A stretch of 34,088 nucleotides of DNA from an uncultured Alphaproteobacteria bacterium. Its GTDB lineage: Bacteria > Pseudomonadota > Alphaproteobacteria > Thalassobaculales > Thalassobaculaceae. Both the position numbers and the translations under genes were made by a program. Location of the stretch: positions 1 through 34,088 of the forward strand of contig CACHDV010000016.1 in the NCBI GenBank assembly GCA_902578675.1, written 5' to 3'. Of this stretch, positions 940 to 7,431 are shown one piece after another. The notes beneath the pieces were generated by a model. The model was not told the origin of the DNA and did not search any database. It saw only the letters and a list, made by a program, of their open reading frames with translations. Within the stretch, counting starts at the first letter, position 1, and each line of letters starts with the position of its first letter.

Positions 940-1011
940 CCGGCGATAAAAATAAAATCGATAAACTAACGTAATAAAGCTCGTTATTGTCGGTTGTACA
1001 GGAGAAGTAAA

Positions 1012-1332
1012 ATGTTAATTTCTACGGCTTATGCACAAGGTGCCGGCGCGGGGGGTGGTTTCGACCTCATGGCTTTAGCGCCATTAGTACTTATTTTTGT
1101 TGTTTTCTATTTTCTACTAATCCGCCCTCAACAAAAAAGGGCAAAAGAGCATAAAGAAATGCTCTCTAAAATACGGCGTAATGACCGAATTGTTACAAAC
1201 GGCGGCTTAATGGGAAAAGTAGCAAAGGTTAACGACGACCGGGACGAGATTGAATTGGATATAGCTGAAAACGTCAGAGTTAAGGTAAGGCGAGGGATGG
1301 TTGCAGAGGTGACGTCTAAAGGTGAGGGTTAA
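1012..1332 (+). CDS. yajC: Sec translocon accessory subunit YajC
   Basis: A 106-residue protein with one membrane segment (about residues 22-41) followed directly by the family hallmark RPQQKRAKEHKEM and a basic cytoplasmic domain containing RIVTNGGL. YajC associates with SecDF-YidC in the inner membrane. The ATG at 1012 is preferred because an AGGAG ribosome site lies at 1000-1004; an in-frame TTG at 994 would place that site inside the gene. secD starts 42 bases downstream and secF follows, giving the standard yajC-secD-secF operon. Confidence 0.95.
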   Translation: MLISTAYAQGAGAGGGFDLMALAPLVLIFVVFYFLLIRPQQKRAKEHKEMLSKIRRNDRIVTNGGLMGKVAKVNDDRDEIELDIAENVRVKVRRGMVAEVTSKGEG

Positions 1333-1374: not shown

Positions 1375-2946
1375 ATGTTGCAGTTTCCCGCCTGGAAAAT
1401 GACTTTAGTAGTCGTGATATGTTTAATTGGCACAGTATATGCCGTCCCAAACTTTTTAAAGACAGAGATTAACGAAAACTGGCCAAATTTTGCACCAGGA
1501 AAGCGTGTTAGCTTGGGATTAGATTTGCAAGGCGGGTCTTACTTATTGCTTAGAGTGGATCTAGACGTTGTGATTAAAGAATATCTTGAGGAGATTTCAA
1601 CAGACGTTCGGAAAAAGCTACGAAAAGCAAGGATTGGTTATTCTAAACTTGGTTCAACTGAAACCAGCGTTTCAGTTAAAATCCGAAAAAAGGAAGACTT
1701 TCCTGCATCAAAGGACTTATTGACTAATGTAGATCTAAAAAGCGACGTTGAGTTTGATAGTAATGGCTTTGTAAAAATCACTCCGCGAGATGAGGCTTTA
1801 GAAGAGCGCAAATTACTGGCACTGCAGCAGTCTATTGAGATAGTGCGAAGACGCATCGATGAGACTGGTGTTAGAGAGCCTACAATACAGCGCCAAGGCA
1901 CTGATAGAATTTTGGTTCAGTTACCGGGGGTCGATGATCCAGATAGAATCAAGGCACTGCTGGGTCAAACAGCTAAGATGGTTTTTCGGCTTGTCGATCT
2001 AAGTAAATCGGTAAATGAGGCAGTTGCAACCAGGGTTCCTTCTGGATCAGAGCTCTTGGCTCCTTTAGTGGAGAGTGCAAGCGAGCCTTCCTTATATCTA
2101 GTAAAAAAACGGGTTATGGTAAGCGGGGAGCATTTAATTGACGCACAGGCGACATTTCAAGATGGTCAACCAGTAGTTAGTTTCCGTTTTGATACAAATG
2201 GATCTAAACGTTTTGGTAAAGTGACAAGTGAAAATGTAAACCGACCATTTGCTATTATACTTGACAACAAGGTTATAAGTGCGCCGGTTATTCGGGAACC
2301 TATTTTAGGTGGCTCTGGCATTATTTCTGGTAGCTTCACTGTAAAAACTGCTAATGATTTGGCTCTTCTACTAAGAGCCGGTGCGTTACCAGCCCCTCTG
2401 ACAGTTCTGGAAGAGCGAACAGTTGGGCCCGGGTTAGGCTTTGATTCTATAGAGGCCGGCAAACTAGCAAGTATAATTGGTTTGTGTCTTGTGATTATCT
2501 TTATGGTTGTCGCTTACGGTTTGTTTGGAATTTTTGCGAATTTAGCTCTGTTTTTTAATATCGTCATTATCTTGGGCGCCTTATCAGCTCTACAAGCGAC
2601 CCTCACTCTTCCGGGAATAGCCGGAATTGTTCTTACTATCGGTATGGCAGTCGATGCGAATGTGCTCATTTTTGAACGAATCAGGGAAGAGGTTTTATTG
2701 GGTCGCACACCGATATCAGCGATAGATGCAGGATATAAAAGAGCATTAACCACGATCATTGACTCAAATTTAACTACTCTATTTGCTGCAATTTGCCTTT
2801 ATTCTTTTGGTTCCGGGCCAATCAAAGGATTTGCTGTAACGCTAGCTATTGGAATTCTTACGTCAATGTTTACATCGATTATGTTAACAAGATTTTTGAT
2901 TGTTCTGTGGTTGCGAGGCAAGCGACCTAGTTCTTTACCTATTTGA
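1375..2946 (+). CDS. secD: Protein translocase subunit SecD
   Basis: A 523-residue inner-membrane protein. It has an N-terminal membrane segment (about residues 8-24), the GLDLQGG motif at 48-54, a large periplasmic P1 region, and five C-terminal membrane segments from about residue 360. The conserved AVDANVLIFERIREE motif lies in the C-terminal part. SecD works with SecF to use the proton motive force for late steps of protein export. Length is normal for the short alphaproteobacterial form. No strong ribosome site is visible before the ATG, so translation may depend partly on coupling with yajC. The stop is 16 bases before secF. Confidence 0.97.
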   Translation: MLQFPAWKMTLVVVICLIGTVYAVPNFLKTEINENWPNFAPGKRVSLGLDLQGGSYLLLRVDLDVVIKEYLEEISTDVRKKLRKARIGYSKLGSTETSVSVKIRKKEDFPASKDLLTNVDLKSDVEFDSNGFVKITPRDEALEERKLLALQQSIEIVRRRIDETGVREPTIQRQGTDRILVQLPGVDDPDRIKALLGQTAKMVFRLVDLSKSVNEAVATRVPSGSELLAPLVESASEPSLYLVKKRVMVSGEHLIDAQATFQDGQPVVSFRFDTNGSKRFGKVTSENVNRPFAIILDNKVISAPVIREPILGGSGIISGSFTVKTANDLALLLRAGALPAPLTVLEERTVGPGLGFDSIEAGKLASIIGLCLVIIFMVVAYGLFGIFANLALFFNIVIILGALSALQATLTLPGIAGIVLTIGMAVDANVLIFERIREEVLLGRTPISAIDAGYKRALTTIIDSNLTTLFAAICLYSFGSGPIKGFAVTLAIGILTSMFTSIMLTRFLIVLWLRGKRPSSLPI

Positions 2947-2962
2947 GTGTATTGGATTTATA

Positions 2963-3901
2963 ATGCTCAAACCTATTCGTTTTGTGCCTGCTGGAACAAA
3001 CATCCGATTTGTCAATAAGCGGGGTTTTGCTTTTACGTTATCCGCTATAATCCTTCTAGCATCTGTTTTTTGTTTAACCTCCCTAGGGTTAAATTTTGGA
3101 ATTGATTTTAGAGGGGGCATCTTGATGGAAATCCGTTCGTCTAATGCTGTAAACATTCCGCAGATAAGAGACAGGCTATCCACTTTAGGACTTGGCGAAG
3201 TGACCATTCAAGAATTTGGCAAGGAAACAGATGCTCTTGTAAGGATCCAACGGCAAGATGGTGCAGAAAAAGAGCAGATGGCTGCCATCAATAAAGTTAA
3301 GGATCGCCTTGGCAGTGAGTTTGAATATCGCAGAACAGAATTTGTTGGCCCGACGGTGGGCAAGGAATTGAAAGAGGCCGGAATAATTGCGATCTGCTTA
3401 GCTCTCTTATCCATATTAATTTATATCTGGTTGCGCTTCGAGTGGCAGTTCAGTTTAGGAGCTATTGCTGCTCTGTCGCATGATATAGTGAGCACAGTTG
3501 GTTTATTTGCTTTATTACAGTATGAGTTTAATTTAGCCACTGTAGCAGCCATACTTACAATAGCAGGATATTCTATAAACGACACTGTAGTAGTATACGA
3601 CAGAGTGCGAGAGAATTTGCGCAAGTACAGACAGTTAGAATTATCCGAAGTATTTAACATGTCGATTAACGAAACTTTGTCCAGAACTACGATGACATCG
3701 GTAACTACCCTACTTGCATTGTTTTCGATATTTTTCTTTGGTGGTGCTGTTTTAGCCGATTTCGCTCTAGCTATGATCTGGGGCGTTTGCATAGGTACGT
3801 ATTCATCGATATTTATAGCTGTTCCTATACTACTTTACGTTAAATTGAAGCGAGGTGATGGCGACCAAAGCGGTTTGCAGGCTCCTGAAGACGAGAGGTA
3901 A
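2963..3901 (+). CDS. secF: Protein translocase subunit SecF
   Basis: A 312-residue inner-membrane protein with the SecF signature NFGIDFRGG near residue 50, a periplasmic domain, and a C-terminal five-helix region containing SINDTVVVYDRVREN. It pairs with SecD in the export complex. The ATG at 2963 is chosen because it gives the usual N-terminus (MLKPIRFVP); a longer in-frame start at 2900 would overlap secD by 47 bases and add a segment unlike SecF. The Mth938-like gene begins 9 bases after the stop, so the operon continues. Confidence 0.97.
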   Translation: MLKPIRFVPAGTNIRFVNKRGFAFTLSAIILLASVFCLTSLGLNFGIDFRGGILMEIRSSNAVNIPQIRDRLSTLGLGEVTIQEFGKETDALVRIQRQDGAEKEQMAAINKVKDRLGSEFEYRRTEFVGPTVGKELKEAGIIAICLALLSILIYIWLRFEWQFSLGAIAALSHDIVSTVGLFALLQYEFNLATVAAILTIAGYSINDTVVVYDRVRENLRKYRQLELSEVFNMSINETLSRTTMTSVTTLLALFSIFFFGGAVLADFALAMIWGVCIGTYSSIFIAVPILLYVKLKRGDGDQSGLQAPEDER

Positions 3902-3910
3902 AAATTATTA

Positions 3911-4288
3911 ATGGATGTGACGCCTCTTGTCTCTAAAGGTCGGCAATTAATAGAAAGTTATGGCGATGGAGCCTTTAAAATATCGGGGGTGGTTTATACC
4001 GCTCCTATTATTGTATTTCCTGAGTCCTGTTTTTCTCCCGAAAATTTTGAGGCTGATGAGAGTAGTTTCCGATTATTGCGCGAAGTTTTCCAAACGGGCT
4101 ATAGTCCATCAGTATTGCTTTATGGAACTGGAAAAAATATAAGCCTGATACCAGAAATAGAGAAGGAATTCGTCCGGCAACAAAATTGCGTATTGGACAT
4201 AATGAATACAGGTGCCGCGTGTCGTACATTTAATGTTCTGTGTGCGGAGGACAGAAGGGTGGCGGCCGTTTTGTTTCCAGTTGATTAA
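3911..4288 (+). CDS. Mth938-like (DUF498) protein, NDUFAF3 family
   Basis: A 125-residue soluble protein with the family pattern: N-terminal strand region with FKISGVVYTAPIIVFP, central SVLLYGTGKN, and the strongly conserved MNTGAACRTFNVLCAEDRRVAA near the C-terminus. The Mth938/DUF498 family includes human NDUFAF3, a complex I assembly factor; the bacterial role is not settled. Its position directly after secF (9-base gap) fits a job at the membrane during insertion or assembly of proteins. The next gene overlaps its end if the TTG start at 4281 is used, which suggests translational coupling. Confidence 0.85.
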   Translation: MDVTPLVSKGRQLIESYGDGAFKISGVVYTAPIIVFPESCFSPENFEADESSFRLLREVFQTGYSPSVLLYGTGKNISLIPEIEKEFVRQQNCVLDIMNTGAACRTFNVLCAEDRRVAAVLFPVD

Positions 4289-5198
4289 ACCTAAAGAAGT
4301 CAAGGCAGGCATAGCAACGTGTCGTTTGGTTGCAAAAAAAGCTAATGCTAACTTCTTTTATGCCTCGCAAATTCTCAACACTCCTAGGAGAGAATTTTTT
4401 TATGCGACGTATGCAGCGATGCGCATAATCGACGATGTAATTGACGAAGATTTTTTAAAACTTGATGCGAAAGGTCGGAATAAATTAGAGGCTAGCTTCG
4501 AAAGAAAACTTTCTAGATGGTTACAACAGGTTTTGCAGCTAGAGACAGGTGGAGGACCTTTGTCACCGGGAATAATTCATGCTCTCAAATATACTATTGG
4601 TAGAAGCGATTTAACACAATCCGTTTGGAGGGATCTCGCTGCGTCACTGGCAATGGATATTAAGGGGTCGGATATGCAGTCTTGGGATGATTTTTTACAT
4701 TATTGCAAGGGCGCTACAATCGCTCCAGCTTCGATATACATTTATTTACTTGCCGCCACTTATACCAAAGAAAAGCATTTTGAATACAAGTTGCCTCATG
4801 AATTGAGTTACTATGCTCGTGATTTGGCAATTTATTGCTATATAGTGCACATTGTACGAGACCTAACAAAAGATGCTATCGCATCGCCAAGATTAATCAC
4901 CATTCCCAATGAACTATTATTCGAGAATGGTTTGTCACGATCGACACTTTCATCGTCGTTAAAAAACAAAGACCCGGCTATTGTAAATTTAGCAAACAAC
5001 TTAATCCAAAGAGCGGAGCCATTTTATTGTAATGGGCACGAGGTTCTGTTTGAACTTAACAAGTTACTTGGGTTTTCTGAAAAAATTGCCCTAAATAAAT
5101 TGATTGGTGTCTACGATCAATTATATAGAGTAGCGCAAGATAATGTTCAAATTCTTATAGAGCGAGGGCAGGCCCTTGAAGAAAAATTTCGAATCTGA
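4281..5198 (+). CDS. Squalene/phytoene synthase family protein with catalytic Asp motifs
   Basis: About 305 residues from the TTG at 4281, which overlaps the previous stop by 8 bases; a GTG at 4212 is also in frame but would overlap 77 bases. It belongs to the trans-isoprenyl diphosphate synthase (head-to-head) family. The first Asp-rich motif DDVIDE is at residues 51-56 and a second DLTKD at about 194-198, both placed where the enzymes bind the Mg-diphosphate of their substrates. It may therefore make squalene- or phytoene-type products, but no carotenoid or hopanoid gene is near. The neighbour downstream is a family member lacking these motifs. The context (secF, Mth938-like) is more like an assembly-factor cluster than a terpenoid operon. 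Confidence 0.75.
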   Translation: MIKPKEVKAGIATCRLVAKKANANFFYASQILNTPRREFFYATYAAMRIIDDVIDEDFLKLDAKGRNKLEASFERKLSRWLQQVLQLETGGGPLSPGIIHALKYTIGRSDLTQSVWRDLAASLAMDIKGSDMQSWDDFLHYCKGATIAPASIYIYLLAATYTKEKHFEYKLPHELSYYARDLAIYCYIVHIVRDLTKDAIASPRLITIPNELLFENGLSRSTLSSSLKNKDPAIVNLANNLIQRAEPFYCNGHEVLFELNKLLGFSEKIALNKLIGVYDQLYRVAQDNVQILIERGQALEEKFRI

Positions 5199-5213
5199 AC
5201 TAGGTGACTGACC

Positions 5214-6059
5214 TTGGGCAGTTTATTAATTGCTAATAGAGACTTGGTTAAAAAAGCCGACCCAGATAGATATGTATGTACCTTATTTGCTGATCGCGAT
5301 GTTCAAGAACTTTTGTTTGCGATTTACGCCCTATATAATGAGCTGGCAGCTATACCATTTCGGACGCAAGAAGCGAACCTCGGGGAAATACGTTTGCAAT
5401 GGTGGAGAGAAACTTTGCTGGCGTCAAAAACTGAGATTAATTTATCAAGCGACCCAATTATGCAAGGAATTTACAAATTAAATCGTCAGCCAAAATTCAA
5501 TCGGGAATTAATGCTATCGATCATTGACGAACGGGAAAATGACTTATTAAAAAGGCAACCCAAAACGATCGAGGAATTAGAAAGGTATATAAAAAATACA
5601 TCTGGAGCCATAACATGTATAGCCTTGGATTTGATGGATGTAACAGACAAGCATATCCGGCAAGCGTGTCAAGATATTGCTCTTGCTTATGGTTTGATAG
5701 GCGTACTAAGGTCCACTCGTTTTTTACTGAATTATGATCGTATTCTTGTTCCCAAAAGTTTGTTAGATAGATGTGAAGTTTCTCAAGAAATTTTCAAAAA
5801 TGGGAAAGAAAATCAATCTTTAAGGTCAATTGGAGTAGCAATTACAGAAATTGGTGAAAGCCTCCTTTTAAAAGCCCGTAAAACTGAACAAAATATAGAG
5901 AGGGGGTCTATGCCTTGCTTATTACTAGCAAGTTTGACCGGTTTGTATATTAAACAACTGAAAAGACTTAATTACGACCTTTTTGATCTTCGGTTGAGCC
6001 AACCAACGAACTGGGGCGTTTGGGTACTTGCTTTTAACTATTGTTTCAAAAAGTTTTGA
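5214..6059 (+). CDS. NDUFAF6-like squalene/phytoene synthase fold protein, probable pseudoenzyme
   Basis: A 281-residue protein from the TTG at 5214, which has AGGTG at 5202-5206 upstream; no in-frame ATG exists near the N-terminus. The pattern DRYVCTLFADRDVQELLFAIYA followed by LGEIRLQWWRETL is typical of the NDUFAF6 (C8orf38) branch of the squalene/phytoene synthase family. Where active enzymes have DDxxD it reads ELAAIPFRTQE, and the second motif region reads RSTRFLLNYDRILVP, also without the Asp pair. Catalysis is therefore unlikely. Human NDUFAF6 helps assemble complex I. It is the last gene of the + strand run and faces trmFO with a 12-base gap. Confidence 0.75.
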   Translation: MGSLLIANRDLVKKADPDRYVCTLFADRDVQELLFAIYALYNELAAIPFRTQEANLGEIRLQWWRETLLASKTEINLSSDPIMQGIYKLNRQPKFNRELMLSIIDERENDLLKRQPKTIEELERYIKNTSGAITCIALDLMDVTDKHIRQACQDIALAYGLIGVLRSTRFLLNYDRILVPKSLLDRCEVSQEIFKNGKENQSLRSIGVAITEIGESLLLKARKTEQNIERGSMPCLLLASLTGLYIKQLKRLNYDLFDLRLSQPTNWGVWVLAFNYCFKKF

Positions 6060-6071
6060 TATAAAACATTT

Positions 6072-7431
6072 TTAATTAGAATTAATCCAAGCATTTAAAT
6101 CATTTAGTGCTCTCTCTGAAAGGGCCTTTTTTTTCTCAGTGCCCTTTAAACGTAGTGTTTTGCCCTTATGATTTATCTTGTTTGGCAACTCTGGGAATAA
6201 TCCAAAGTTTATGTTGGTTGGTTGAAAATTATCTTGATGCTCTGCATTTGTGATATGAGAGAGCAATGACGCCAAAGCGGTATTTTTCGGTGGTATTTGT
6301 GGCTCGCTGCCCAAAATTTCATTAGAAAAAAACATGCCTGCTAATAATCCGATAGCAGCGCTTTCTAAATAGCCCTCAACGCCTGTTATTTGTCCTGCAA
6401 ATCGTATTCGTTCTTGTCGTTTGAATCGTAAAGTTGCATCCAATAGGCGTGGGGAGTTAATAAATGTATTTCTGTGCAGCCCCCCCCAGTTTAGCGAATT
6501 CTGCATTCTCTAAACCAGGTATTCTTCTAAAAAGTTGTTTTTGATTGCTGTGTCGAGTTTTGGTTTGAAAGCCTACCATATTATATAACGAGGCTGCCTG
6601 GTTATCTTGGCGAAGCTGCACAACAGCATGAGGCTGCTCGTCTGTATGAGGATTGGTTAAGCCAACTGGTTTCATAGGACCAAATCTAAGAGTTTCTCGT
6701 CCTCGACGGGCCATTTCTTCTATAGGCATACACCCTTCAAAATAAGGTGTCTCTTTCTCCCAGCTCTTGAATTCAATAGTTTCCTGGGACGTTAAATCGT
6801 CGATAAAATCATCATACTCCTTTTTGTTTAATGGGCAGTTTATGTAGTCCCCGGAACTATTTAATTCAGTGTTTTTGTCGTACCGTGATTGATACCAGGC
6901 TTTCGAGAAATCTATACTTTCTGTGTATACGACAGGAGCAATCGCATCAAAAAATGCCAGAGATTCTCTTCCACTCAAGATAGCAATTTCATCTGATAGT
7001 CGAGAGGAGGTAAGGGGGCCAGTTGCAATTATCACATTGGCATCTGCGGATAGCTGGCTTAAGGTCATTTCTTTACGTTCTAAATTGATCAATTTTTCTT
7101 CAGTGATTGCTTCCTCTACGCTCTCAGAGAAAAGGTGTCTATCTACTGCCAGTGCACTTCCGGCGGGAAGGCGAGCGGTGTCGGCGGCCTTCATTATTAG
7201 TGAATCACATCGACGCATTTCCTCGTGTAGAACGCCTACGGCGTTTGCTGTGCTATCGTCTGATCGGAACGAATTTGAACACACCAATTCTGCTAGGTTT
7301 GATGTCACGTGTGCTTCAGTCATAATTTGAGGACGCATTTCGTACAAAATACATTCAACATTTCGTCTAGCAAGCTGCCAGGCGGCTTCACAACCAGCTA
7401 AACCTCCACCGATTATATGAATATGTCTCAT
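6072..7431 (-). pseudogene. trmFO: trmFO, methylene-THF-tRNA (uracil-5-)-methyltransferase, split by a frameshift
   Basis: TrmFO makes 5-methyluridine at tRNA position 54 using FAD and methylene-tetrahydrofolate. The N-terminal part (start 7431) has the FAD motif [11 protein letters not shown], the [13 protein letters not shown] motif with Cys51, and [14 protein letters not shown] with Cys234, matching the two functional cysteines of the family. The frame breaks after AKLGG near 6487; the rest ([18 protein letters not shown] onward, with FAGQITGVEGY) continues in another frame to 6072. Removing one G from the G8 tract at 6480-6487 joins the two into about 452 residues, the normal length. Everything else looks intact, so the break is either recent, a sequencing error, or switchable. 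It lies 60 bases downstream of uvrA on the same strand. Confidence 0.85.
6480..6487 (-). repeat. trmFO: G8 homopolymer inside trmFO, site of the frameshift
   Basis: Eight consecutive C on the + strand (G8 in the coding direction). The expected reading is ctg-ggg-ggg-ctg-cac (L-G-G-L-H), which needs seven G. The eighth moves the frame and ends translation about 8 codons later. A run this long stands out in such AT-rich DNA and is prone to slippage and to sequencing error. Confidence 0.85.

Follow-up and report, generated by a model that had tools for sequence, protein, structure and literature searches.

The closest described counterpart of the locus analysed here is a gene neighbourhood in which Saada et al. 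2009 (AJHG 84:718) reportedly tied NDUFAF3 to SecF, SecD, YajC and C8ORF38 (NDUFAF6), and from which they are said to have drawn the same suggestion about complex I. Neither the neighbourhood of secDF, DUF498 and an NDUFAF6-like gene nor the complex I idea is therefore new. Our locus resembles that reported cluster in both respects and adds to it a further gene, SQS1, together with evidence from co-loss with the nuo genes. What is new is a natural experiment within the order to which our DNA belongs, in which DUF498 and the NDUFAF6-like gene SQS2 were lost or decayed along with an apparent loss of nuo while SQS1 was spared.

Human NDUFAF3, NDUFAF4 and NDUFAF6 are required for ND1 synthesis, and NDUFAF3 remains on the Q module (PMC6056720). 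It co-evolves with NDUFAF6 (PMC3436739). Both DxxxD motifs are missing from NDUFAF6 proteins (PMC8007014), and the motif positions in the human and Arabidopsis proteins read AxxxD and A/SxxxH (PMC12470011).

The gene run behind secF

We analysed a stretch of 34,088 nucleotides (the window, G000:C16) from an uncultured marine alphaproteobacterium whose 1.67-Mb assembly is rated 62% complete. Near one end lies a tight run of six genes, closed by a convergent trmFO and then by uvrA, also on the opposite strand:

994..1332, + strand: yajC (PF02699 1e-30; TIGR00739 above cut-off)
1375..2946, + strand: secD (TIGR01129 488 bits, above cut-off)
about 2963..3901, + strand: secF, from a putative ATG start (TIGR00966 326 bits, above cut-off)
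3911..4288, + strand: DUF498, a Mth938 family protein of 125 aa and bacterial relative of NDUFAF3 (PF04430 1.3e-24)
4281..5198, + strand: SQS1, SQS_PSY fold with both Asp motifs present, IDDVID and RDLTKD (PF00494 4e-25)
5214..6059, + strand: SQS2, a predicted NDUFAF6-like pseudoenzyme of SQS_PSY fold, with AAIPF and STRFL at the DxxxD motif positions (PF00494 2e-35)

The open reading frame of secF as listed begins at TTG 2900. Only 9 bp separate secF from DUF498 and 15 bp separate SQS1 from SQS2, and DUF498 and SQS1 overlap by 8 bp. The most likely start of SQS1 is TTG 4281, so that its first codons overlap the stop of DUF498; in support, the corresponding frame in the related genome G144 opens just two codons upstream. 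No strong internal promoter stands out within the run. The preliminary description had placed NDUFAF3-like and NDUFAF6-like genes in one run behind yajC-secD-secF, and the open reading frames and Pfam matches confirm this without gaps. It had, however, merged two genes into its single synthase-fold gene: the interval holds three genes, and the second of the merged pair, SQS2, is the NDUFAF6-like one.

DUF498 scored 86.7 bits against PF04430, for which the curated cut-off is 33. Its relatives of solved structure are 2fi9, 2fvt and human C11orf67 (2ab1), the last a weak match. Like human NDUFAF3 (C3ORF60), it has a PF04430 domain above cut-off, and its gene shares a neighbourhood with secDF and a gene like NDUFAF6; the window protein is bacterial, and its likeness to NDUFAF3 is one of family, through the PF04430 profile match.

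The linkage extends across the class. In a survey of 142 genomes, about one per alphaproteobacterial family, DUF498 was present in 75; in 69 of these, judged by position, no more than about 1.5 kb separated it from secF. The adjacency is thus ordinary in the class and not due to chance. Among the matches listed, an NDUFAF6-like gene was found downstream of DUF498 in many class genomes, and it adjoined secF even in some genomes that lack DUF498.

In the window, trmFO (6072-7431, − strand) is split by a single extra G in a run of Gs (eight, compared with seven in relatives), and nuoH on contig G000:C21 carries the same kind of change. Both look like homopolymer errors of assembly or recent slippage. 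We considered whether the nuoH frameshift marked a loss of complex I and rejected this, because trmFO shows the same kind of change; the frameshift comes from a single G added to a run of Gs, and the rest of the gene is nearly identical to that of G146.

Apparent loss of nuo with DUF498 and SQS2 within the order

We sampled 36 genomes of the window's order and judged the absence of nuo through searches for NuoH and NuoD only. Most genomes contained both. In genus g150, however, searches for NuoH and NuoD found neither in any of five genomes (71-91% complete), and searches for DUF498 and SQS2 were likewise negative in all five. The four g150 loci that could be read across the junction were directly joined as secF-SQS1-trmFO(−)-uvrA(−), where the window has secF-DUF498-SQS1-SQS2-trmFO. 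Since SQS1 stands directly behind secF with trmFO and uvrA adjoining, DUF498 and SQS2 are cleanly missing from this locus.

A second case came from the genus of the window itself, in which the sister species G145 and G147 gave no NuoH or NuoD match. SQS2 is a pseudogene in both, with six and five in-frame stops, respectively, plus frameshifts. The two copies have no lesion in common, which suggests that they probably decayed independently. Between these species, omega was 0.65 for SQS2 and 0.51 for DUF498; the values were lower for SQS1 (0.10) and for uvrA, ssb and trmFO (0.06-0.12). Differences fell almost equally on the three codon positions of DUF498 (24/28/27) but mostly on the third position of SQS1 (23/17/85; p = 3e-6 for the difference between the genes). 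By comparison, the nuo-bearing pair G000 and G144 have open frames for both DUF498 and SQS2, with a DUF498 omega of 0.14. The complete 1.5-Mb genomes G162 and G163 retain NuoH, NuoD and DUF498 together with a single SQS_PSY gene, which is of the SQS2 type; SQS1 is absent.

The nuo-negative genomes are 68-91% complete, and the joint chance that incompleteness alone explains seven of them is about 3e-5, a figure that supposes the genomes to be independent and accepts their completeness estimates as they stand. Two genomes count against the pairing with complex I. G148 (70% complete) gave no NuoH or NuoD match, yet its DUF498-SQS1-SQS2 run is intact; conversely, nuo is present in G142 (96%), but searches there found no DUF498 or SQS2, perhaps through the absence of one stretch of DNA. 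The independent loss events number only two or three. In the 1.5-Mb genome G162, a gene for dCTP deaminase separates DUF498 from SQS2 (L150:4565-5752); in G161, SQS2 and DUF498 flank an inserted HpnC/HpnD-like pair that runs on the other strand (L151:4217-5925).

Because DUF498 and SQS2 were lost or decayed together with the apparent loss of nuo and are kept in 1.5-Mb relatives that bear nuo, we regard them as a probable ancestral alphaproteobacterial pair for the biogenesis of complex I, presumably acting at NuoH and the Q module, with a separate role for SQS1. The preliminary description had hinted at an ancestral module for a membrane complex such as NADH dehydrogenase; a link to complex I is supported for DUF498 and SQS2, which follow nuo, but not for SQS1, which remains under purifying selection where nuo was not found.

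An unlikely but not negligible alternative is that DUF498 and SQS2 are general helpers of Sec-dependent membrane insertion or of the envelope, and that genome reduction merely removed them along with nuo. The position of DUF498 beside secF in 69 of 75 genomes would fit such a role, as would its absence from most small genomes, with and without nuo alike, and the lack of a significant association once genomes are matched for size. Against it, complete nuo-bearing genomes of 1.5 Mb keep both genes, and the larger g150 genomes, in which nuo was not detected, lack both. Moreover, only DUF498 and SQS2 disappear from the run, leaving secDF and SQS1 intact.

At the level of the class, DUF498 occurred in 62 of 101 good NuoH-positive genomes and in none of 14 NuoH-negative ones (p = 7e-6), but where genome size was at most 2 Mb the counts were 7 of 33 and 0 of 14 (p = 0.09). 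We therefore rejected co-occurrence across the class as proof of a complex I role, as it is mostly an effect of genome size; the correlation with nuo sought in the preliminary description is strong inside the order but, across the class, weakens when small genomes are compared with small. DUF498 was missing from the other 39 of the 101 NuoH-positive genomes, so it is not universally needed for complex I and is dispensable in those alphaproteobacteria.

Two synthase-fold genes with different motifs

We aligned 91 proteins. All five key aspartates (D51, D52, D55, D194 and D198) were kept in 34 of 34 SQS1 homologues, as they are in HpnC, HpnD and CrtB. None of 24 SQS2 proteins had Asp at positions 51, 52 or 194, and a single one had it at 198. 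SQS2 is thus predicted to be a pseudoenzyme that can no longer perform metal-dependent prenyl transfer. Like NDUFAF6 (C8ORF38), it combines the SQS_PSY fold with loss of both DxxxD motifs, and some of its relatives carry A/SxxxH: the SQS2 proteins of L074 and L179 match the AxxxD and A/SxxxH pattern exactly (AKTRD/SVPFH), and those of L131 and L234 nearly do. The SQS2 of the window, with AAIPF and STRFL, has diverged further.

In a maximum-likelihood tree of non-eukaryotic sequences, SQS1, SQS2, HpnC and CrtB each formed a separate clade with full support (100/100 for SQS1 and for SQS2). HpnD formed a single group except for one long row, and SQS2 leaned weakly towards it (63/88). The preliminary description had raised the prospect that the synthase-fold proteins would group with carotenoid or hopanoid enzymes, and the placement of SQS2 in a clade of its own, apart from HpnC, HpnD and CrtB, speaks otherwise. 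Structural models were confident for both SQS1 (pLDDT 94.5) and SQS2 (pLDDT 92.5; TM 0.85 to the CrtM-like 8is6), and the best structural matches of both were CrtM-type enzymes. SQS2 scored 123 bits against PF00494. We rejected the idea that both genes are NDUFAF6-like, as motifs and tree leave SQS2 alone in that position.

SQS1 has the fold and both Asp motifs of the head-to-head prenyl synthases HpnC/HpnD and CrtB/CrtM. It differs from them in two respects: ahead of motif 2 it has invariant Y and H residues, where HpnC, HpnD and CrtB mostly have Q and N, and it lacks the VAGxVG stretch that HpnD and CrtB contain. Judged by its motifs, it is a catalytically competent-looking relative of prenyl synthases, with a role that is probably enzymatic and separate from that of the complex I pair. 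That SQS1 has a role of its own follows from its retention without SQS2 in g150, Thalassospira and Magnetococcales.

It is improbable that SQS1 and SQS2 work as a single unit, an enzyme with its pseudoenzyme, which would bring SQS1 into the complex I module. The two genes are often in tandem, including away from secDF-DUF498 in several lineages, as one would expect of such a unit. However, SQS1 is strongly constrained where SQS2 and nuo have been lost, is absent from G162 and G163, which keep SQS2 and nuo, and stands without SQS2 nearby in Thalassospira (beside pgk) and Magnetococcales (beside bamD). About as improbable is a scheme in which SQS1 would be an active head-to-head prenyl synthase of a kind not yet described and SQS2 would bind its product, which would tie complex I biogenesis and, by descent, mitochondrial NDUFAF6 to an isoprenoid ligand.

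A further and very unlikely reading, that both are ordinary carotenoid or hopanoid enzymes behind secDF by happenstance, draws on their shared PF00494 domain, the metal-binding aspartates of SQS1 and a top NCBIfam match to HpnD for both, albeit far below cut-off (for SQS1, 68 bits against 278.6), but SQS2 lacks the catalytic motif, neither protein groups with HpnC, HpnD or CrtB, and the phytoene synthase of the genome lies elsewhere. For the last reason we also rejected SQS1 as the phytoene synthase of this genome: CrtB sits in a rhodopsin-retinal cluster on another contig (L161, G000:C14, 5152-11345), with rhodopsin, a polyprenyl synthase/GGPPS, a CrtI-like protein, the lycopene cyclase CrtY and Blh.

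The SQS1 clade also includes genes from assemblies that bear the labels Verrucomicrobiales, unclassified bacterium or Candidatus Eisenbacteria (L216, L217, L220 and L221), by possible transfer or mis-binning. In three metagenome assemblies (L218, L230 and L234) SQS1 is split into two frames, as is SQS2 in L218, through sequencing error or decay.

A possible route to complex I

Under the reading that we favour, in which DUF498 and SQS2 serve complex I biogenesis, SQS2 would retain the synthase fold without prenyl transfer and may act as a chaperone associated with the membrane. SQS2 and DUF498 together would help newly inserted NuoH (ND1) to mature and to dock with the Q module; NuoH and the Q module are proposed as clients by analogy with human NDUFAF3 and NDUFAF6. 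Membership in the yajC-secD-secF run would allow SQS2 to be made together with the insertion machinery, and the gene order suggests that DUF498 and SQS2 may cooperate physically with SecDF.

The order of the window thus supplies natural knock-outs, in which DUF498 and SQS2 vanish with the nuo genes and SQS1, wedged between them, stays. What gene order had only suggested becomes, through this co-loss, a specific prediction for cultivable alphaproteobacteria. The co-loss also singles out SQS1 as an uncharacterised synthase subfamily, and it is relevant both to human disease genes and to how the assembly factors of mitochondria arose.
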